64,000 nucleotides of DNA from Schaalia sp. HMT-172 (GTDB lineage Bacteria > Actinomycetota > Actinomycetes > Actinomycetales > Actinomycetaceae). Below, piece after piece: positions 1,578 through 28,634 of this stretch (its first letter is position 1; the number at the start of each line of letters is the position of its first letter). The translations under genes and the position numbers were made by a program. The notes below the pieces were generated by a model that saw only the letters and a list, made by a program, of their open reading frames with translations, was not told the DNA's origin and searched no databases. The DNA lies in the NCBI RefSeq assembly GCF_030644365.1, contig NZ_CP130058.1:992001-1056000 (forward strand). Direction: 5' to 3'.

Positions 1578-3326
1578 ATGAAAACGATTCGAACCTTGCT
1601 GGGCCGACTGCGGGAGTTCAAGAAACCCGCGATCCTGACCCCGCTGTTCATCATCGGGGAGGTCATCCTCGAGTGCCTGATCCCGCTGACCATGGTCTCG
1701 CTGGTGGATGCACTCGACGGCGACACGTTGACCCCCGTCCTTCGCCTGGGCGCGATCCTCATTGGCCTGGCCTTCGCGTCGCTGACCTGCGGAATTCTGT
1801 CCGCTCGCTTCGCGGCGACCGCCTCGGTGGGCTTGGCGAAGAACCTGCGACAGGACCTCTTCTTTAAGGTGCAGGACTTTTCCTTCGCCGACATCGACCG
1901 CTTCTCCACGTCCTCGCTGGTCACCCGCATGACGACGGACGTCACGAACGTCCAAAACGCCTTCGGTATGCTCATTCGTATCGCGGTGCGCGTGCCGCTC
2001 ATGATCATCTTCTCCATCGTCATGGCGTTCCGTATTAACGTCCAGATGGCCCTCATCTTCCTTGGGATGGTGCCGGTTCTCGCCCTCATCCTGGCGGCCA
2101 TTGTGCTCATCGCTTTCCCGATATTCCGCCGCATCTTCAAGAAGTACGACGCCCTGAACAACTCGGTGCAGGAGAACGTCGCCGCGATCCGCGTGGTCAA
2201 GTCCTTCGTCACCGAGGAATACGAGACTACCAAGTTCCGCCACGCCTCCGCCGACGTGCGCAAGGACTTCACGAACGCCGAGAAGCTCATCGCGCTCAAC
2301 AGCCCTGTCATGATGTTCTTCATCTTCGCCGCGATCATTGCCGTCGACTACGTGGGCGCCTCGATCATCGTGAACTCGGGTGCGACAGAGCTGACGAAGG
2401 GCGGCCTGACCGCCCTCATCACCTACGGCATCCAGATCCTCGCGCACATGCTCATGCTTGCCTTCATCTTCGTCATGGCGACGATGGCCGCCGAATCCGC
2501 GCACCGCATCGCCGAGGTCCTCACTCACGACCCGTCGCTGACCTCCCCGGCGAACGGGGTCACGGACGTCGCGGATGGCTCCGTCGTCTTCGAAGGTGTG
2601 TCCTTCAAGTACTCCGAGAGCGCCGAAGAAAACGCGCTATCCGACATCAACCTGCGCGTTGAATCCGGGCAAACGCTCGGTATCGTCGGCGGCACGGGCT
2701 CCTCCAAGACCTCGCTCATCCAGCTGATCTGCCGCCTGTACGATGTCTCCGAGGGTTCCGTGAAGGTCGGCGGGCGCGACGTGCGCGACTACGACCTGAC
2801 CGCCCTGCGTGACGCCGTCTCCGTCGTCCTGCAGAAGAACGTGCTCTTCTCTGGCACTATCAAGGACAACATGCGCTGGGGCAACCCGGACGCGACCGAC
2901 GAACAGATCGTCCGCGCCTGCAAGCTCGCGCAGGCCGACGAGTTCATCCAGCAGCTGCCCGGCGGCTACGACTACGTCATCTCCCGCGGCGGCACCAACG
3001 TCTCCGGCGGCCAGAAGCAGCGCCTGTGCATCGCACGCGCGCTGCTGAAGAACCCCACGATCCTCATCCTGGACGACTCCACCTCCGCCGTGGACACGAA
3101 GACTGATTCCCTCATTCGTCACGCCTTCGAGAGCGAGATCCCGGGTACGACGACGATCATCATCGCCCAACGCCTGTCCTCGGTGAGCCACGCCGACCAG
3201 ATCATCGTGCTGGACGATGGCCGCATCAAGGAACGCGGCACCCACGACGAGCTGATGGCGGCGGGCGGGGAGTACCGCGAGATCTACGAGTCCCAGAACG
3301 CCGCGAGCGAAAGCGAGGTGGCCTGA
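1578..3326 (+). CDS. ABC exporter half-transporter, degenerate-site subunit
   Basis: 582-residue fusion of an N-terminal six-helix exporter domain (about residues 10-320) and a C-terminal ATPase domain. The ATPase has Walker A GGTGSSKTS near residue 370, signature VSGGQKQR near 475, and Walker B LILDDSTSAVD near 495. The residue after the Walker B Asp is Asp where the catalytic Glu normally sits, the usual mark of the degenerate site in a heterodimeric exporter. The next gene starts one base after the stop and carries the intact Glu, so the two very probably form one heterodimer. A GAGGAGATAC ribosome binding site precedes the ATG. The substrate (drug, lipid or peptide) cannot be read from the sequence. 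Confidence 0.9.
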   Translation: MKTIRTLLGRLREFKKPAILTPLFIIGEVILECLIPLTMVSLVDALDGDTLTPVLRLGAILIGLAFASLTCGILSARFAATASVGLAKNLRQDLFFKVQDFSFADIDRFSTSSLVTRMTTDVTNVQNAFGMLIRIAVRVPLMIIFSIVMAFRINVQMALIFLGMVPVLALILAAIVLIAFPIFRRIFKKYDALNNSVQENVAAIRVVKSFVTEEYETTKFRHASADVRKDFTNAEKLIALNSPVMMFFIFAAIIAVDYVGASIIVNSGATELTKGGLTALITYGIQILAHMLMLAFIFVMATMAAESAHRIAEVLTHDPSLTSPANGVTDVADGSVVFEGVSFKYSESAEENALSDINLRVESGQTLGIVGGTGSSKTSLIQLICRLYDVSEGSVKVGGRDVRDYDLTALRDAVSVVLQKNVLFSGTIKDNMRWGNPDATDEQIVRACKLAQADEFIQQLPGGYDYVISRGGTNVSGGQKQRLCIARALLKNPTILILDDSTSAVDTKTDSLIRHAFESEIPGTTTIIIAQRLSSVSHADQIIVLDDGRIKERGTHDELMAAGGEYREIYESQNAASESEVA

Positions 3327-3327
3327 C

Positions 3328-5259
3328 ATGGCACGCGAGCGCAACTCCCGGATCGACGATGGTGAGAAGCTCGAAGGCATCGATCGTCCCTTCGGTCGTC
3401 TCCTGCGATACGTCTTCCGCCACTACCCGGTGCGTATCAGCCTGACGGTCGTGTGCATCATTACGTCCGCCGTGGCCTCGGCGGTCGGTTCGATCTTCAT
3501 GCAGCAGATCGTCGACAACGTCGTGACCCCGGGCCTCGAGATCGGCTTCGATGCGGTGCGAGGCACCCTCGTGCGCCTCGTCGTCACGATGGGCATTATT
3601 TTCAGCGCAGGCGTCATCGGTAGCTTCATCTACACCCGTGCCATGGCGATCGTGACCCAAGGGACGCTCAAGCACATGCGAGACGACATGTTCGACTCCA
3701 TGGAGCGCCTGCCCTTGCGTTTCTTCGACACGCATCCGCACGGCGCGATCATGTCGACCTTCACGAACGACACGGACGCGATCCGCCAGCTGATCGGTCA
3801 ATCGATCCCGACGCTCATCCAGTCGGGCCTGACCATCGTCGTGCTCATCGCCACGATGCTCTACTACTCCGTGTGGCTCTTCCTCGTCGTCCTCGTGGTG
3901 GGCGCCCTCATGGCGTTCCTGACGGGCAAGCTCGGTGGCCTCTCGGGCCGCTTCATGAAGGCCCAGCAGGCGGCCTTGGCGGACGAAGAGGGCTTCATCG
4001 AAGAGATGATGGATGGCCAGAAGGTCATCCAGGTTTTCAACCACGAGCGCGACGCCAAGGACGAGTTCGTTGAGTACAACCAGAAGCTCTTCGACTCCTC
4101 GCAGAAAGCCAATATCTACGGCAACGTCCTGATGCCCGCCCTGGGCAACATCGGCAACATCATGTACGTCGTCATCGCGATTGTCGGCGGCGTCATGATC
4201 CTCGAACAGACGCCGAATATTCACCTTATCGGCATCGACGTCATCACGGTCGGCATTGTCGTGTCCTTCCTGGGTATGGTCCGTAACTTCTCGCAGACGA
4301 TCGGACAGATGTCGATGCAGGTGCCCATGATCGCGCTCGGCATGGCGGGGGCGGGGCGCGTGTTCGCCCTCATCGACCAGGAGCCCGAGGAAGACCACGG
4401 ATACGTGACACTCGTGAGGGCCCGAGAGCTGCCCGACGGCAGCCTCGAGTCGACCGAGGAACGTACCGGAATCTGGGCTTGGCGTCACCCCCACCAGGCG
4501 GACGGCACCGTCACGTACACGCGCCTGCGCGGCGAGCTCGTCATGGAGGGCGTGGACTTCTCCTACGACGGTGAGAAGCAGATCCTGCACGACATCTCCC
4601 TGTGGGCCAAGCCCGGCCAGAAGATCGCTTTCGTGGGCGCGACGGGCGCCGGCAAGACAACGATCACGAACCTGATCAACCGCTTCTACGACATCGCCGA
4701 CGGCAAGATCCGCTACGACGGCATCAATATCAACAAGATCCGCAAGTCGGACCTGCGTCGCTCCCTCGGCGTGGTTCTGCAGGACGTCAAGCTGTTTACG
4801 GGCTCGGTCATGGAGAACATCCGCTACGGCCGACTGGACGCCACGGACGAGCAGTGCATTGAGGCCGCGAAGCTGGCCAACGCGGACTCCTTCATCCGAC
4901 GTCTGCCCGACGGCTACGACACGATGCTCACGGGTAACGGCTCCAACCTGTCCCAGGGGCAGGCCCAGCTCCTGTCGATTGCCCGCGCCGCCGTGGCCGA
5001 TCCGCCGGCGATGATCCTGGATGAAGCGACGTCTTCGATCGACACACGCACCGAGGCGCTCGTGCAGGCGGGCATGGACAACCTGATGGAGGGACGCACA
5101 GTCTTCGTGATCGCCCACCGCCTCTCGACGGTGCGTAACTCGGACGCGATCATGGTCCTGGAGCAGGGGCGCATCATTGAGCGCGGCAGCCACGACGACT
5201 TGATCGCTCAGAAGGGCGTGTACTACCAGCTCTACACGGGCGCCTTCGAGCTCGACTAG
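3328..5259 (+). CDS. ABC exporter half-transporter, catalytic-site subunit
   Basis: 643-residue membrane-ATPase fusion and partner of the preceding gene, separated from it by one base. Transmembrane helices fill roughly residues 25-350. A linker longer than usual (about residues 350-400, rich in Glu and Arg) precedes the ATPase. Walker A is GATGAGKTT near residue 436, signature LSQGQAQ near 541, and Walker B MILDEATSSID near 561 with the catalytic Glu present. With the partner's Asp substitution this gives the asymmetric ATP sites known from heterodimeric type IV exporters. A strong hairpin terminator follows the stop, so the two genes form a closed operon. The substrate is unknown. Confidence 0.9.
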   Translation: MARERNSRIDDGEKLEGIDRPFGRLLRYVFRHYPVRISLTVVCIITSAVASAVGSIFMQQIVDNVVTPGLEIGFDAVRGTLVRLVVTMGIIFSAGVIGSFIYTRAMAIVTQGTLKHMRDDMFDSMERLPLRFFDTHPHGAIMSTFTNDTDAIRQLIGQSIPTLIQSGLTIVVLIATMLYYSVWLFLVVLVVGALMAFLTGKLGGLSGRFMKAQQAALADEEGFIEEMMDGQKVIQVFNHERDAKDEFVEYNQKLFDSSQKANIYGNVLMPALGNIGNIMYVVIAIVGGVMILEQTPNIHLIGIDVITVGIVVSFLGMVRNFSQTIGQMSMQVPMIALGMAGAGRVFALIDQEPEEDHGYVTLVRARELPDGSLESTEERTGIWAWRHPHQADGTVTYTRLRGELVMEGVDFSYDGEKQILHDISLWAKPGQKIAFVGATGAGKTTITNLINRFYDIADGKIRYDGININKIRKSDLRRSLGVVLQDVKLFTGSVMENIRYGRLDATDEQCIEAAKLANADSFIRRLPDGYDTMLTGNGSNLSQGQAQLLSIARAAVADPPAMILDEATSSIDTRTEALVQAGMDNLMEGRTVFVIAHRLSTVRNSDAIMVLEQGRIIERGSHDDLIAQKGVYYQLYTGAFELD

Positions 5260-22888: not shown

Positions 22889-23523
22889 GCGTCCTGCCGA
22901 TCTGCATCACGGGCGAGCCAGTCCTGCACAGGATCGCCGACCCCGTCGAACGTTTCGATTCCTCCCTGACCGACCTCGTCGCCGACATGATCGACACCAT
23001 GCACGAGGCCCCCGGCGTGGGGCTGGCCGCCCCCCAGGTCGGCGTCGGGCTCCAGCTTTTCGTCTGGTCGTACCGGGGAGGCGGGCCCTTCGACAGGCGC
23101 TACCGTGACGCCCTCGCCCTGGACCGCGCCCCCACCCTCGGCTTCAACGACGCGATGAGCGGCGTCGTCGTCAACCCCACGCTTGACCTCGTCTGGGACG
23201 AGGCCGGTGCGGGCGCGATCCTCCCCGCCCAGCCAGACATCGCCGACGAGGCCGAGGGCTGCCTGTCGGTCCCCGGCGTGACCTATCCGCTGCGCCGCGC
23301 GCTCGGCGCCATCCTGCGCGGCTACGACGCGAATGGGCGCCCGATCACGGTGGCCGCGCGTGGCTGGCTCGCGCGCATCTTCCAGCACGAATACGACCAC
23401 CTCCGAGGAACCCTCTACGTCGACCGCCTGGAGGAGCCCTACGGGCAGATGGCCGCGGAGCTCGCGCACTCCAAGGGCTGGGGACGCCCCGGATACACGT
23501 GGACCCCGGGGGAGCGAACCTAA
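22885..23523 (+). CDS. def: Peptide deformylase
   Basis: 212 residues. All three deformylase motifs are present: GVGLAAPQ, EGCLS (here EAEGCLSVPG) and HEYDH (here FQHEYDHLRG), giving the Cys/His/His metal site and catalytic Glu. An insert between motifs 1 and 2 (about residues 55-110) is longer than in E. coli Def, as seen in actinobacterial type I forms. It removes the formyl group from nascent proteins. The ATG overlaps the acetyltransferase stop by four bases. Confidence 0.94.
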   Translation: MSVLPICITGEPVLHRIADPVERFDSSLTDLVADMIDTMHEAPGVGLAAPQVGVGLQLFVWSYRGGGPFDRRYRDALALDRAPTLGFNDAMSGVVVNPTLDLVWDEAGAGAILPAQPDIADEAEGCLSVPGVTYPLRRALGAILRGYDANGRPITVAARGWLARIFQHEYDHLRGTLYVDRLEEPYGQMAAELAHSKGWGRPGYTWTPGERT

Positions 23524-23557
23524 GCCGCCCCCGCCGGGGCCGGGCACGCGGTGTGTC

Positions 23558-24436
23558 TCAGTGGACCTCGAAACCCAGCGAGCGGAAGTACTCGCGCACA
23601 TCCTCCGTTGCCTCGGGCGTGGGAGCCTTCGTATCCTCAAGCTGATACTCCAGGCCGAGGGAATGCCACTTGTCCTTACCCAGCTGGTGGAAGGGAAGAA
23701 CCTCGATACGGTCGATGACATCCTTCCAGCGGGTGACAATCTCACCGACCTTGCGGATGTTCTCGGGGTCGTCCGTCAGGCCCGGAACCAGGACAAAACG
23801 AATCCAGATGCGTGTGTCCCCGCCTCGAGCCGCGATGCGGTCGCCGAACGCAATTGTGGGTGCCAGCTCACGGCCGGTCGCCTTCTTGTAAGTCTCCTCG
23901 TCGCCGCTCTTGACGTCCAGAAGCACCAGATCGATCGCGTCGAGCATCTCGTCGTCGCAGTTCGCGCCCAGGTAGCCGGAGGTGTCGATGCACGTGTGCA
24001 CGCCCATCTCCTTGGCACCCAGCAGGATGCGCTTGGCGAAGTGGGGCTGCATGAGGACTTCGCCGCCGGACAGCGTGATGCCGCCCTTCGTCGTTCGGAA
24101 AATACGACGATAGCGGGCGATGCGGGAGAGCAGCTCCGTGTCGGACACGGGAGCGCCGTCTTTCATGAGGAACGTATCAGGGTTGTGGCAGTAGAGGCAG
24201 CGCAGCGGACAACCGTTGAGGAACACGGTCATGCGCGTGCCGGGGCCGTCGACGGCGGTCACCAGCTCCCAGGAATGAATGGAACCGAGCGTGCCCTCTC
24301 GCATGCGTCGCAAGCGTTCGGAACGCTCCAGGTCCGTGATCTCCTCAAGGCCCTCGACGCCCGCGCCGACGGTACGGGATTGGGGAGCCTGGAAGTCCTG
24401 CTCGCGGAACGTGGGAATGGCGAGGGGCTGCGTCAT
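23558..24436 (-). CDS. pflA: Pyruvate formate-lyase activating enzyme (radical SAM)
   Basis: 292 residues. The radical SAM cluster motif is CPLRCLYCHNPD (Cys-x3-Cys-x2-Cys), followed by TLSGGEVLMQP, CIDTSGYLG, LLDVKS and VLPFHQLGKDKW, all typical of PflA. It uses SAM to place a glycyl radical on its target. In this locus that target glycine is on a separate small protein (24571-24822), not on the main lyase chain. About 45 N-terminal residues precede the conserved core, longer than in E. coli. AAGGA lies upstream of the ATG. A strong hairpin separates it from the radical-domain gene, so it may have its own promoter. Confidence 0.94.
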   Translation of the reverse strand: MTQPLAIPTFREQDFQAPQSRTVGAGVEGLEEITDLERSERLRRMREGTLGSIHSWELVTAVDGPGTRMTVFLNGCPLRCLYCHNPDTFLMKDGAPVSDTELLSRIARYRRIFRTTKGGITLSGGEVLMQPHFAKRILLGAKEMGVHTCIDTSGYLGANCDDEMLDAIDLVLLDVKSGDEETYKKATGRELAPTIAFGDRIAARGGDTRIWIRFVLVPGLTDDPENIRKVGEIVTRWKDVIDRIEVLPFHQLGKDKWHSLGLEYQLEDTKAPTPEATEDVREYFRSLGFEVH

Positions 24437-24524
24437 GATTCCTTCTTCGAGGTAGTACGGGCGCGGCGATGGCGCGAACGAGGCCGGGGCGTGCGCGATT
24501 GCGGGCGCAACCGGCGGGCATAGC

Positions 24525-24558
24525 AGTGGGGCGCCGGGCGTGCGCCCAACGCCCCACT
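24525..24558 (-). terminator. Hairpin between the radical-domain gene and pflA
   Basis: Perfect 9-bp stem AGTGGGGCG/CGCCCCACT enclosing a second GGGCG/CGCCC stem. It starts 13 bases past the stop of the glycyl-radical-domain gene on the minus strand. It probably terminates or attenuates transcription before pflA. Confidence 0.65.
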
Positions 24559-24570
24559 ACCGTCGACCGA

Positions 24571-24822
24571 TCAGGCCGAGTGGTGGAAGGTGCGGGACAG
24601 GACGTCCAGCTGCTGCTCACGGGTGAGCTTGACGAAGTTCACGGCGTAGCCGGAAACGCGAACGGTCAGGTTCGGGTACTTCTCGGGGTGCTCCATCGCG
24701 TCCTTCAGCGTGGACTCCTCGAGAACGTTGATGTTCGCGTGGTACAGGCCATCCTTGTCGCCGCGCTCCTCGCGGGCGGCCTTCATGTCAGCGAGACGCT
24801 CTTCGTAGGTCTTGGTTGCCAT
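24571..24822 (-). CDS. Stand-alone glycyl-radical domain of pyruvate formate-lyase (GrcA/YfiD-like)
   Basis: 83 residues. After a charged 25-residue leader, the protein is the C-terminal domain of pyruvate formate-lyase: [20 protein letters not shown], then [20 protein letters not shown]. Gly58 in RVSGYAV is the expected radical carrier. In E. coli YfiD/GrcA such a domain repairs oxygen-cleaved PflB. Here the main lyase chain (24946-27051) lacks this domain altogether, so this protein is likely an obligatory subunit, not a repair part. AAGGAGA precedes the ATG. It lies directly downstream of pflB and upstream of pflA. Confidence 0.9.
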
Positions 24823-24898
24823 AACATTTCTCCTTAATTGTGAGACTCCGGCGGTGCCGGCTGGGCGGGCCGGGTCGCGGCCTCACCCACGGGTTGGG

Positions 24899-24937
24899 TG
24901 GCGGGGATCAACAAGGGATGCGAGTTGATCCCCGCCA
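24899..24937 (-). promoter_or_regulatory. Perfect 14-bp hairpin between pflB and the radical-domain gene
   Basis: TGGCGGGGATCAAC and GTTGATCCCCGCCA pair perfectly around an 11-base loop, 9 bases after the pflB stop on the minus strand. No T-tract follows. It could be a partial terminator, or an RNA stabiliser that sets different amounts of the lyase core and the small radical subunit. Confidence 0.7.
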
Positions 24938-24945
24938 ATGGTGGA

Positions 24946-27051
24946 TCAGTAGCCCTTGGTTCCGTCGTAGGCGCAGGAATCGTCGGGGACGAAGCCGGCG
25001 TCGAGGATACCGACCAGGTTCTGGATCTGCTCTTCCTTGGAGCGGCCCAGGCCCTGCGGGGTGATCGTGTTCGTCAGCGAGATGCCGTCGAGCGCGTCGT
25101 TGTAGTCCAGCTTGCCGACCGACAGCATGGAGGCGACCATGCCGTGCGTGTCGATGCCGTTCTCGGGGTTCGCGCCGGGGGCGAAGGGGGTGCCCTTCTC
25201 GTGGCCCGACGGGAAGGAACCGGTGGCCTTGCCGTAGACGACGTTGGAGGTGATCGTCAGGACCGACTGGGTCGGGATCGCGTCGCGGTACATGGGGAGC
25301 GCGCGGATCTTGTCCATGACGGTGTGGACGACGGTCGCGGCGATGTCGTCGGCGCGGTCATCGTCGTTGCCGTAGGTCGGGAAGTCGCCCTCGGTGCGGT
25401 AGTCGACGACCAGGCCGGTCTCGTCGCGGATCGGGTAGACCTTCGCGTACTTGATGGCGGCCAGCGAATCGGCGACGATGGACAGGCCGGCGATGCCGCA
25501 GCCCATGGTGCGAACGATCTCGGCGTCGTGCAGCGCCATCTCGATGGCCTCGTAAGCGTAGCGATCGTGGCAGTAGTGGATGATGTTGAGGGCCTCGACG
25601 TAGGTGCCAACGACCCAGTCCAGCATCTCCTCGTAGCGCTTCCACACGTCGTCGAAGTCGAGGGGGCCGTCGCCCTGGACGGGTTCGTAGCCCTCCATGA
25701 CCTGCTTGCCGCTCATCTCGTCGCGGCCGCCGTTGATGGCGTAGAGCAGGGCCTTGGCGGCGTTCACGCGGGCGCCGAAGAACTGCATCTGCTTGCCGAC
25801 GCGCATGGGGGACACGCAGCACGCGATGGCGGCGTCGTCGCCCCAGTGGGCGCGGATCTGCGGATCGGACTCGTACTGAATCGACGAGGTCTCGATCGAG
25901 ATACGGGCGCAGAACTCCTTGTAGCCGCGGGGCAGGTTCTCGTCCCAGAAGATGGTGATGTTCGGCTCGGGGGCCGGGCCGAGGTTCACCAGAGTCTGGA
26001 GCAGACGGAACGAGGTCTTGGTGACCAGCGTGCGGCCGTCGTCGCCGAAGCCGGCGTCGGACCAGGTTGCCCAGTAGGGATCGCCCGAGAAGATCTGGTC
26101 GTAGGCGATGGTGCGCAGGAATCGGGTGATGCGCAGCTTGATGACCAGGGCGTCGATGATCTCCTGCGCGCCCGACTCATCGAGCGTGCCGTTCTTCAGG
26201 TCGCGCTCGAAGTAGCAGTCGAAGAAGCCGGAGAGGCGGCCGATCGACATGGCGGCGCCGTCCTGAGACTTCACGGAGGCCAGGTAGCCGAAGTAGGTCC
26301 ACTGCACGGCCTCGTGCGCGTTGGTGGCCGGGCCGGAGATGTCGTAGCCGTAGGAGGCGGCCAGGTTCTTCAGCTTCTTCAGGGCCTTGATCTGCTCGGA
26401 GTGCTCCTCGCGGTAGCGCGCCCAGTGCTCGGAGAAGGGCTGGTCGGCGTAGCGATCCTTGTCCTTCTGCTTCTCGGCGATGAGGTGATCAACACCGTAG
26501 AGGGCCACGCGGCGGTAGTCACCGATGATGCGGCCACGGCCGTAGGCATCCGGCAGGCCGGTGATGATGTGGGAGGAGCGGGCGGCGCGAATACGCGGGG
26601 TGTAGATGTCGAAGACCGCGTCGTTGTGGGTCTTGCGGTACTGGGTGAAGATCTTCTTCACCTCGGGGTTGTATTCCTTGCCGGCCTCGTGGATGGCGGT
26701 CTCGACCATGCGCCAGCCGCCGTTGGGCATCATTGCGCGCTTGAGCGGAGCGTCGGTCTGGAGGCCGACGATCACGTTGTCGTCCTCGCAGATGTAACCG
26801 GGCTTGAAGGCGTCGATGTCGGCCGGGGTGTCGGTGTCAACGTCGAGGATGCGCACCTTGCGCTCTTCGGAGAGGTACTTTTCCTCGAGGGTGTTCCAGA
26901 CCCGCATGGTCTTTTCAGTGGGGCCAGCCAGGAACGAGGCGTCGCCCTCATACGGGGTGTAGTTCAGCTGGATGAAGTCGCGGACGTCGATCTCATCGCA
27001 CCAGTTACCCTTGACAAAACCTTCCCAGGCTTTCTGGTCTGCTGTCGTCAT
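24946..27051 (-). CDS. pflB: Pyruvate formate-lyase core lacking the C-terminal glycyl-radical domain
   Basis: 701 residues; full-length bacterial enzymes are about 750-760. The N-terminus (TTADQKAWEGFVKGNW) and the barrel are normal, and the catalytic pair Cys-Cys is in AIACCVSPMRVGKQMQ near residue 410. SVLTITSNVVYGKATGSFP, TPFAPGANPENG and LTNTITPQGLG follow as usual. The chain then ends at DSCAYDGTKGY, just where the linker to the radical domain should begin. RVSGYAV is absent here and is found on the next gene. The enzyme converts pyruvate and CoA to acetyl-CoA and formate under anaerobic conditions. A TAA/TAG-type sequencing error is unlikely because 123 bases, a hairpin and a fresh ribosome binding site separate the two parts. 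Confidence 0.94.
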   Translation of the reverse strand: MTTADQKAWEGFVKGNWCDEIDVRDFIQLNYTPYEGDASFLAGPTEKTMRVWNTLEEKYLSEERKVRILDVDTDTPADIDAFKPGYICEDDNVIVGLQTDAPLKRAMMPNGGWRMVETAIHEAGKEYNPEVKKIFTQYRKTHNDAVFDIYTPRIRAARSSHIITGLPDAYGRGRIIGDYRRVALYGVDHLIAEKQKDKDRYADQPFSEHWARYREEHSEQIKALKKLKNLAASYGYDISGPATNAHEAVQWTYFGYLASVKSQDGAAMSIGRLSGFFDCYFERDLKNGTLDESGAQEIIDALVIKLRITRFLRTIAYDQIFSGDPYWATWSDAGFGDDGRTLVTKTSFRLLQTLVNLGPAPEPNITIFWDENLPRGYKEFCARISIETSSIQYESDPQIRAHWGDDAAIACCVSPMRVGKQMQFFGARVNAAKALLYAINGGRDEMSGKQVMEGYEPVQGDGPLDFDDVWKRYEEMLDWVVGTYVEALNIIHYCHDRYAYEAIEMALHDAEIVRTMGCGIAGLSIVADSLAAIKYAKVYPIRDETGLVVDYRTEGDFPTYGNDDDRADDIAATVVHTVMDKIRALPMYRDAIPTQSVLTITSNVVYGKATGSFPSGHEKGTPFAPGANPENGIDTHGMVASMLSVGKLDYNDALDGISLTNTITPQGLGRSKEEQIQNLVGILDAGFVPDDSCAYDGTKGY

Positions 27052-27286
27052 TCTTCCTCTTCTCGGATTTTCCGTTTCCCTGTGGGGACGGTCGTTGGGA
27101 GCATCGCTCCGTCAGTGCGCCGGATTCCGGCGCTTGGGTCTATTGTCCTACGGTCGATGGCGACCAGACAACCTGTTTCGCCCATCGATCTATGTTCTGT
27201 GTCTCAGGGGTGTGAGTCGAAAGTCTCTCGCGCTGCAATTATAGGACGAAGGTCCCCGTTAGGGAAGGGGGGCCTTTGACCACCTA

Positions 27287-27300
27287 CACTGGTACCAGTG
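27287..27300. promoter_or_regulatory. 14-bp perfect palindrome upstream of hom
   Basis: CACTGGTACCAGTG, a perfect palindrome 26 bases before the hom start codon, immediately downstream of TTTGACC. Its position suits an operator or a repressor site in the hom promoter region. The regulator is unknown. Confidence 0.5.
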
Positions 27301-27326
27301 CCCGTTTCACGAAGGAGATAATCCCT

Positions 27327-28634
27327 ATGTCCGCACCCCGTCCGGTCCTCGCAGTTGGCGTTCTTGGCGCTGGAACCGTCGGTAGCCAGGTCATTCGCAT
27401 CCTGCAGTCCAGCCGCGAGGATTTCGCCGCCCGCTCCGGTGCACAGATGGAGGTCCGCCGAGTCCTTGTCCGCAATGTGGATGCCCCGCGCGACTCCCCG
27501 ATCGACCGCGAGCTGCTGACGACCGACCCCGCCGAGGCCATTGACGGGATGGACCTCGTCGTCGAGTTGATCGGCGGCATCGAGCCGGCGCGCACGTTCG
27601 TGTTGCGCGCCCTCACCCAGGGCATCTCGGTCGTGACGGGCAACAAGGCCCTGCTCGCCGCGCACGGCCCGGAGCTGTACGAGGCTGCCGCCTCCAACGA
27701 CGCCGACCTCTACTACGAGGCTGCCGTCGCCGGCGCCGTGCCCGTCGTGTACGGCCTGCGCGAGTCCCTCGCGGGTGACCGCGTGACGACGGTGATGGGC
27801 ATTGTCAACGGTACGACGAACTTCATCCTGGATGCGATGAGCTCCAAGGGACTGAGCTACGAGGGCGCCCTTAAGCAGGCGCAGGACCTGGGTTTTGCCG
27901 AGGCCGATCCGACGGCCGACGTCGAGGGACTGGACGCCGCCGCCAAGTGTTCCATCCTGGCCTCGCTCGCCTTCCACACCCGCGTGGGAATCGACGACGT
28001 CGCGGTCGAGGGCATCTCCAACATCACCAAGGAGGACATGGAAGAGGCCGCTCGCGTGGGCCACACCATCAAGCTCCTGGCCATTGCCGAGCGCCGCATC
28101 GGCGAGGATGGCCGCGAGGGCGTCGCGATGCGCGTCCACCCCGCCCAGGTGCCCTCGGATCACCCGCTGGCGTCCGTCGACGGCGCCTTCAACGCCATCC
28201 TCGTCGAGGGTGAGAATGCCGGGCGCCTCATGTTCTACGGGCAGGGAGCGGGCGGCGCCCCCACGGCCTCGGCCGTCCTGTCCGACCTCGTGGCCGCCGC
28301 GCACCACCGCGCCTTCGGCGGGCACGCGCCGCGCGAATCCGTCTACGCGCACCTGCCGATCCTCGACCCCGGCTCGACCCACACGCGCTACCAGATCCGT
28401 CTCCAGGTGGAAGACCGCCTGGGCGTCCTGTCCGACGTCGCCGGCATCTTCGCCCGCCACGGAGTGTCGATTCAGTCCGTGCATCAGCGCAACGATCAGG
28501 TGCCCGGCGCCTGCGTCATCGTCGTGACCAGCCACCGGGCTCGCGAGGCAGACCTGCGTGCCGTTGCCCGTGCACTCGCCGTCTCCGACGCGGTGCGCGA
28601 GGTGACCTCCACGATCCGCGTTGAGGGTGAGTGA
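27327..28634 (+). CDS. hom: Homoserine dehydrogenase with ACT domain
   Basis: 435 residues. The NAD(P)-binding start is VGVLGAGTVGSQVIRIL. The catalytic domain has SVVTGNKALLA and GIVNGTTNFILDAM, and FAEADPTADVEGLDAAAK is the homoserine dehydrogenase signature. A C-terminal ACT domain (about residues 350-430; LQVEDRLGVLSDVAGIFARHG) suggests feedback by threonine. It reduces aspartate semialdehyde to homoserine. The ATG at 27327 has GAAGGAGA upstream. thrB follows with one base between stop and start. thrC and lysC are not in this window's neighbourhood. Confidence 0.95.
   Translation: MSAPRPVLAVGVLGAGTVGSQVIRILQSSREDFAARSGAQMEVRRVLVRNVDAPRDSPIDRELLTTDPAEAIDGMDLVVELIGGIEPARTFVLRALTQGISVVTGNKALLAAHGPELYEAAASNDADLYYEAAVAGAVPVVYGLRESLAGDRVTTVMGIVNGTTNFILDAMSSKGLSYEGALKQAQDLGFAEADPTADVEGLDAAAKCSILASLAFHTRVGIDDVAVEGISNITKEDMEEAARVGHTIKLLAIAERRIGEDGREGVAMRVHPAQVPSDHPLASVDGAFNAILVEGENAGRLMFYGQGAGGAPTASAVLSDLVAAAHHRAFGGHAPRESVYAHLPILDPGSTHTRYQIRLQVEDRLGVLSDVAGIFARHGVSIQSVHQRNDQVPGACVIVVTSHRAREADLRAVARALAVSDAVREVTSTIRVEGE

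Follow-up and report, generated by a model that had tools for sequence, protein, structure and literature searches.

A naturally split pyruvate formate-lyase in Schaalia sp. HMT-172 with its radical glycine on a separate 83-residue subunit

Where does a pyruvate formate-lyase (PFL) carry its radical if the lyase gene ends before the glycyl radical domain? This question is raised by a locus of Schaalia sp. HMT-172 that lies in a 64,000-nucleotide stretch of contig NZ_CP130058.1 (assembly GCF_030644365.1, positions 992,001 to 1,056,000; hereafter the window), where the genes pflB, grcA2 and pflA follow one another in this order on the minus strand. The 701-residue lyase encoded by pflB has no C-terminal glycyl radical domain of its own, and such a domain is encoded by the next gene, grcA2. 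The analysis supports a naturally split PFL in which the radical glycine is carried by a second polypeptide, the sole PFL radical carrier, and it is very probable that the enzyme is obligately two-subunit, built from a 701-residue barrel and the 83-residue GrcA2. The two halves are complementary, the genome contains no other PFL glycyl domain, the arrangement is conserved across genera, and it has at least two origins with different cut sites. The parts of the locus, in window coordinates, are as follows.

24946..27051, minus strand: pflB, PFL catalytic subunit, 701 residues, without a glycyl radical domain (TIGR01255 and alignment to PflB)
25816..25821, minus strand: codons of Cys411-Cys412, the catalytic pair, equivalent to E. 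coli Cys418-Cys419 (position and alignment)
25324..25338, minus strand: lyase residues 572-576, a candidate docking patch (column conservation)
24899..24937, minus strand: stem-loop with a perfect 14-bp stem and an 11-nt loop in the pflB/grcA2 interval (folding against shuffles)
24830..24835, minus strand: AAGGAG, the likely ribosome-binding site of grcA2 (sequence; similar sites precede the grc genes of most relatives)
24571..24822, minus strand: grcA2, detached glycyl radical subunit, 83 residues (NF008341 and alignment to PflB)
24772..24810, minus strand: GrcA2 residues 5-17, conserved motif T[YF]xERxxxMKxxR (alignment of relatives)
24649..24651, minus strand: codon of Gly58, the radical glycine within RVSGYAV (alignment)
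23558..24436, minus strand: pflA, radical S-adenosylmethionine PFL-activating enzyme, 292 residues (TIGR02493)

The two proteins were compared with family profiles and with the full-length PflB of E. coli. The lyase exceeded the cut-off of the PFL profile TIGR01255 (1001.3 against 994.2 bits), and its match reaches no further than profile position 682 of 744, whereas the small protein covers positions 685-743; similarly, the lyase accounts for positions 1-65 only of the 106-position Pfam profile Gly_radical, and the small protein accounts for positions 52-106. Alignment to E. coli PflB gave the same complementary picture, with the lyase spanning PflB residues 9-695 (lyase residue 689 corresponds to PflB 695) and residues 23-82 of the small protein spanning PflB 699-758 (residue 23 corresponds to PflB 699). 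The adjacent catalytic cysteines of the lyase, Cys411-Cys412, align with the E. coli pair. The small protein passed the GrcA2 profile NF008341 (165.9 bits, cut-off 145) but failed the GrcA/YfiD profile TIGR04365 (81.9 bits, cut-off 170), and the product of the third gene scored over the cut-off of TIGR02493, the profile of PFL-activating enzymes (293.7 against 231.75 bits). The first-pass annotation of this locus, which had read from the letters a lyase with the Cys-Cys pair but without RVSGYAV, a next gene that brings the missing domain with Gly58, and pflA thereafter, was borne out in each of these points.

In the arrangement proposed here, the 701-residue protein would form the barrel with the substrate site and the Cys411-Cys412 pair, and GrcA2 would dock into that barrel and contribute the missing last strand, the glycyl loop and the C-terminal helix, with PflA expected to place the radical on Gly58 of GrcA2. 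Family membership and the neighbouring genes suggest that the pair converts pyruvate and coenzyme A to formate and acetyl-coenzyme A, and we infer that the halves assemble and are active.

The genome of Schaalia sp. HMT-172 is a single contig of 2,533,704 bases with a completeness of 99.99%, and it was searched as a whole for other carriers of the radical. PF01228 (Gly_radical) matched the two halves and nothing else, and PF02901 (PFL-like) matched the lyase and nothing else; no full-length pflB was found elsewhere in the genome. A class III ribonucleotide reductase (NRDD family, 707-residue open frame) is encoded at another site and belongs to a different family. Because the genome has no other PFL glycyl domain, its PFL relies on the 83-residue protein, unless it is active without a radical domain, and the earlier proposal that the separate subunit would be the only radical carrier for PFL holds for this genome. 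An assembly error or a chance arrangement at the junction is excluded, since the same layout recurs in 48 other loci of the group to which the window belongs in the lyase tree (clade A), and the junction DNA is never identical between two of them.

The split is a lineage-wide trait and is not peculiar to this organism. In a census of 151 Actinomycetaceae genomes, 97 carried the split form, 32 the fused form, five a distant match only and 17 no match, and split and fused PFL-type domains were never found together in one genome. The 97 comprise 96 genomes with a protein over the GrcA2 cut-off and one (G036) in which it is cut by the contig end; in G063 the small domain lies in a long open frame, but this frame differs from that of the lyase. 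The domain of the 32 fused genomes lies inside an open frame of 755-812 residues, and that of the five distant matches in a frame of about 900 residues. For 22 of the 97 split genomes a wider locus was obtained besides the window, and the lyase gene was followed by grcA2 in 22 of 22. Named split loci, 25 in number and drawn from the best 80 matches, a ranking that favours GrcA2-like sequences, came from Schaalia, Actinomyces, a Trueperella metagenome-assembled genome (MAG), Corynebacterium, Rothia, Brachybacterium, Dermabacter, Propionibacterium acidifaciens and a Cellulomonadaceae MAG. When 21 of these 25 genomes were searched completely, both halves were present and a full-length domain was found in none (0/21); relatives thus share the split that had been described for the window, unaccompanied by an unsplit copy.

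In total, 62 split PFL loci were examined besides the window, 48 of clade A and 14 of a second clade, B. In 59 of the 62 a pflA gene follows on the same strand; it is missing downstream in L084, L150 and L182, the last of which ends at the contig end. Lyase identity among intact clade A relatives is 80-91%. The fused form was found in Bifidobacterium, in Oerskovia and in most of the sampled Cellulomonas and Streptomyces loci. Two observations concern mixed situations. The genera coded g21 and g33 contain some split and some fused genomes (L190 of G021, and G099, against their congeners), which suggests replacement by horizontal transfer. The Cellulomonadaceae MAG (L084) has, along with its split PFL, a second standalone GrcA2-like protein (L271) that is 64% identical over the domain and whose open frame includes a long stretch upstream of it.

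A survey of 396 genomes across the phylum recovered 27 genomes, from two families of another class, that encode a standalone PFL-type glycyl domain, and three genomes of one of these two families in which the domain is fused; the class is probably Coriobacteriia. In the 14 loci obtained from this class the lyase ends early and a small gene comes next, and in one of its genera a standalone frame of 87-114 residues was present in 39 of 43 genomes, a count that leaves out a copy of a different enzyme, X1 (see below), in genome G486. In the phylum to which an Oscillospiraceae bacterium belongs, the PFL-type domains among the matches listed from 348 genomes were all fused save that of G809, whose locus (L263) has the clade B form with a small protein over the cut-off of GrcA3 (NF038360; 160.8 against 158); two shorter frames, in G630 and G786, are truncated by the end of a contig or by a run of N.

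A lyase tree of 110 rows placed clade B at a distance from clade A, and a tree in which all split rows were forced into one clade was rejected (log-likelihood 358 lower; p-AU 1.62e-45, approximately unbiased test on 36 rows selected by eye). Because the single-clade tree is rejected, and because the cut sites also differ, the split PFL arose at least twice. The clade A proteins are cut directly after the stretch NLVGILDAGF, which remains on the lyase, whereas in clade B the matching stretch (DNLVxMIDxY) belongs to the small subunit and the lyase stops upstream in an acidic tail, with at least two cysteines among the last eight residues in 9 of 14. The stretch is presumably a helix, and the two cuts would then flank this same helix on opposite sides. 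Within clade A, the free trees (110 and 39 rows) place four fused rows among the split rows; a tree that holds clade A together, in line with a single origin there, was not rejected (p-AU 0.694), and its log-likelihood was 12 units above that of the free search. Since the tree with the split rows together is the likelier one, and since the fused junctions carry no relic of the GrcA2 N-terminus, a re-fusion inside clade A is not needed, though still conceivable.

New sequence is found on both sides of the clade A cut. The junction of a fused enzyme can be exemplified by NLVGILDAGMTEGLFHANINVL (Sanguibacter, L099); clade A lyases have an added variable tail of 4-14 residues and GrcA2 has about 24 added residues, which in the window amount to a 12-residue lyase tail and, on GrcA2, a 17-residue new stretch followed by a 7-residue linker. 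In an alignment of 40 of 49 GrcA2 sequences, Arg9 and Met13 do not vary, Thr5, Glu8, Lys14 and Arg17 are each present in 93-97%, and the mean frequency of the commonest residue is 0.75 over residues 3-17, 0.48 over the linker (18-24) and 0.90 over residues 25-83. The motif T[YF]xERxxxMKxxR was not seen at the junctions of the fused relatives examined. On the lyase, nine columns have a residue that at least 93% of the 46 split rows share and that the four nearest fused rows mostly lack: A572, T573 and H576 are present in 96-98% of the split rows, the split-type residue at 573 and 576 occurs in 0/4 of the fused rows, and Phe687, another of the nine, sits at the cut. Judged from this conservation, the N-terminus of GrcA2 is probably a docking handle that makes up for the lost covalent link, and lyase residues 572-576 are perhaps its partner.

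The likeness to the E. coli system has limits that bear on the handle. E. coli PflB (formate acetyltransferase 1, PDB 1h16) shares the barrel, the Cys pair, the RVSGYAV loop and a PflA-family activator with the window enzyme; however, PflB is one polypeptide, and the window enzyme is cut between PflB positions 695 and 699. E. coli GrcA/YfiD, and with it phage T4 Y06I, is likewise a separate small protein that bears the PFL glycyl radical in trans. According to excerpts of PMC8683613, YfiD rescues PFL that oxygen has cleaved, and its binding depends critically on residues 696-733 of the cleaved PFL; unlike YfiD, GrcA2 is a sole carrier whose partner lyase is devoid of these residues, and its N-terminal stretch is about 24 residues long, as opposed to 60 in YfiD. 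In the same excerpts Andorfer and colleagues report that YfiD binding was undetectable and the radical 32-fold lower when E. coli PFL was cut after residue 695, that this enzyme, once activated, equalled the wild type in activity, that activation of YfiD by itself was undetectable, and that YfiD minus its first 60 residues bound too weakly for measurement, so that the N-terminal half matters (PMC8683613). The docking-handle reading draws on this comparison, because E. coli PFL cut at almost the same site barely binds YfiD; with the clade A cut about 3 residues from the 695 construct, the natural pair is expected to have acquired contacts not present in E. coli. By analogy, activation of the detached subunit may take place chiefly when it is bound to the lyase.

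No description of a naturally split PFL was found in search listings of openly licensed (CC0, CC BY and CC BY-SA) PubMed Central papers, a scope without preprints that makes the absence weak. At least one group has already worked on a natural split lyase, as the entry PDB 38lb ("Formate acetyltransferase") is a PFL without a glycyl domain that is at most 83% identical to the clade B lyases and extends into their tail. This entry belongs to the clade B origin and not to that of the window, and 0/32 glycyl-domain matches come from it. In excerpts of a transcriptome study of Fannyhessea vaginae, the separately annotated genes grcA (-17.96) and pflB (-14.31) are both among the down-regulated genes (PMC11979175). 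Excerpts of a further study report formate release by Mobiluncus mulieris and F. vaginae (there also Atopobium vaginae), which in both species was lowered by about 90% with 1 mM hypophosphite, an inhibitor of PFL (PMC12208373). M. mulieris belongs to the Actinomycetaceae and F. vaginae to the Atopobiaceae, and the named Actinomycetaceae loci (L063, L064, L070, L071 and L075-L078), which were found with a GrcA2 query, are split in 8 of 8; formate release and split loci together are supportive, not proof.

Several results weigh against an obligate and functional pairing of the lyase with GrcA2, or against particular parts of the argument for it. E. coli PFL cut after residue 695 and supplied with YfiD activates poorly, and complementarity alone is therefore no proof of function. 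YfiD without its N-terminal 60 residues lessens the harm of the 695 cut (excerpts of PMC8683613), which indicates that the two regions interact and that the analogy is not one-way, and which speaks against the simple assumption that such an N-terminal handle is helpful in every case. No biochemistry on the lyase/GrcA2 pair was found in the openly licensed PubMed Central literature, and a split-only PFL in M. mulieris and F. vaginae could not be confirmed by named sequence. The 572-576 patch was picked in an unplanned, exploratory scan that took in about 690 columns and involved no significance test. In the careful 39-row tree, 0/200 bootstraps keep the clade A split rows together and apart from the four fused rows. 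Among the 48 further clade A loci, two have an interrupted lyase (L078, Trueperella MAG; L079, Corynebacterium phocae) with grcA2 and an activase frame still after it, and the lyase of L069 starts at its contig end. The intergenic stem-loop is not kept across clade A.

Other explanations of the locus were weighed against an obligate two-subunit PFL. The NCBIfam names of GrcA2 (NF008341, "autonomous glycyl radical cofactor GrcA2") and GrcA3 (NF038360) imply a spare cofactor that repairs a PFL with its own radical domain, and GrcA2 of the window passes the cut-off of its namesake family; in addition, two of eight fused genomes searched (L113, Silvimonas terrae; L117, Rarobacter faecitabidus) also hold a standalone glycyl domain protein beside their fused PFL. 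The latter are likely genuine spare-part arrangements and contrast with the split form, in which the adjacent lyase is without a radical domain, both forms never coincide in the 151 family genomes, and the GrcA cut-off is missed. Barring the loss of a full-length copy from the assembly, a spare-part role was rejected for this genome, where no PFL with its own domain was found, and it is a very improbable account of GrcA2, which in the genomes examined behaves as an obligate subunit. Fusion of the halves into a full-length enzyme by stop-codon read-through or frameshifting might be considered because the two open reading frames of the window share one frame, with two in-frame stop codons (the TGA of the lyase and one more) in the 123-nt gap between them; AAGGAG stands 7 bases 5' of the grcA2 ATG. 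Across the 62 loci the relative frames vary freely (17/18/13 of 48 in clade A and 5/3/6 of 14 in clade B), the clade A gaps span -4 to 188 nt, and the grc genes, whose starts in relatives were picked by script, each begin at an ATG of their own, usually preceded by an AGGAG-like site. Read-through or frameshifting as the rule was rejected on these free frames and has practically no chance of being correct. It might also be supposed that the lyase has moved past glycyl radical chemistry, or that the locus is decaying with the small frame as a remnant, as the two interrupted lyases among 48 relatives would allow. This has a slim chance at best, since the Cys pair is retained, the TIGR01255 equivalog cut-off is passed, intact clade A relatives keep their high lyase identity, the glycyl domain of GrcA2 is strongly conserved and pflA is downstream almost throughout.

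A different kind of alternative concerns the reason for the split and not its existence, namely that a chance break was tolerated and fixed without benefit, after which further mutations made it irreversible. Such a break could be tolerated because the glycyl domain has to exit the barrel during activation anyway, and the split occurs in presumed anaerobes and in facultative lineages alike. Coriobacteriia are mostly strict anaerobes, and Cellulomonas, Streptomyces and Oerskovia are aerobic or facultative. The full activity of E. coli PFL cut at a near-identical site, once activated (excerpts of PMC8683613), is also in keeping with a tolerated break. At least two independent origins with long retention, and two similar cases in other enzymes (below), hint at an advantage instead, and neutral fixation is a serious possibility that we nevertheless consider somewhat less than even. 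The first-pass annotation had offered a different reason, that a detachable radical subunit could be discarded and renewed after oxygen damage in an organism at the oxic-anoxic border. Because the second origin lies in the presumed Coriobacteriia, while aerobic or facultative genera such as Cellulomonas, Streptomyces and Oerskovia have a fused PFL, the distribution of the split shows no simple relation to oxygen exposure, and this proposed oxygen-border rationale is not plainly favoured.

Detached glycyl domains were also found beyond PFL. X1, a glycyl radical enzyme of the PFL2 class, is split in L162 (G486) and L264 (G829), from two phyla, with a layout of about 752-773 residues, a glycyl domain of about 98-100 residues and an activase gene; the corresponding halves of the two loci are 73% and 84% identical. 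X2, a different PFL2-class enzyme in L265 (G790, 1973-4617), has a detached glycyl domain of 86 residues. Both scored under the NCBIfam cut-offs of all families listed. Across 196 genomes of its class X1 had no further match above 34% identity that covers most of its length, and a second split copy was absent from the 29 genomes searched in the family of the other host; X1 is rare within the genomes searched, and its split as a common feature was rejected, as it is present in two genomes only. The X1 gene of L264 has as neighbours what we take to be genes for an ascorbate-type phosphotransferase system and a lactonase, with a DeoR-type regulator, and X2 presumably lies in a sugar ATP-binding cassette transporter operon.

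Oxygen inactivates glycyl radical enzymes by cleavage at the radical glycine, and, as GrcA/YfiD has shown, the enzyme can be repaired with a copy of this piece delivered in trans. The repeated origin of the split suggests that the breakable part has been made separate and perhaps replaceable. Renewal of the damaged radical part would plausibly cost 83 residues in place of about 784, and, if exchange does occur, this would be cheap upkeep for an oxygen-labile enzyme. That detachment is a recurring design throughout the glycyl radical enzyme superfamily (at least two PFL origins and one or two of the PFL2 class), with the small subunit as an exchangeable radical cartridge, made in excess, docked by its handle and replaced after oxygen cleavage while the large subunit is retained, is a tentative idea with the odds moderately against it. 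The in-trans arrangement appears to be permanent in whole actinobacterial lineages, many genera of which are human-associated, and it allows one to study in a natural system how a separate radical domain reaches its lyase, a process that works poorly in E. coli when PFL is cut close to the same site. It also corrects a problem of naming, as proteins called autonomous cofactors look, in these genomes, like essential PFL subunits.

The regulation of the locus was surveyed in the window. No sigma-70-type promoter was found in 23300-27400 in a scan that did not cover other promoter types, no Rex-like site was found with one consensus, and no Rfam family reached its gathering score across the window. 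The intergenic stem-loop has a z-score of -5.05, with equal stability in 0/200 shuffles, and is not followed by a run of T. Among loci with gaps of at least 40 nt (60 shuffles per locus), a stable intergenic fold (z of about -3 or less) was present in 7/39 clade A loci, the window included, and in 9/13 clade B loci, and these counts rule out a conserved intergenic hairpin as a general feature. Strong folds thus occur in some relatives only, and the stem-loop between pflB and grcA2 might set unequal levels of the two subunits.

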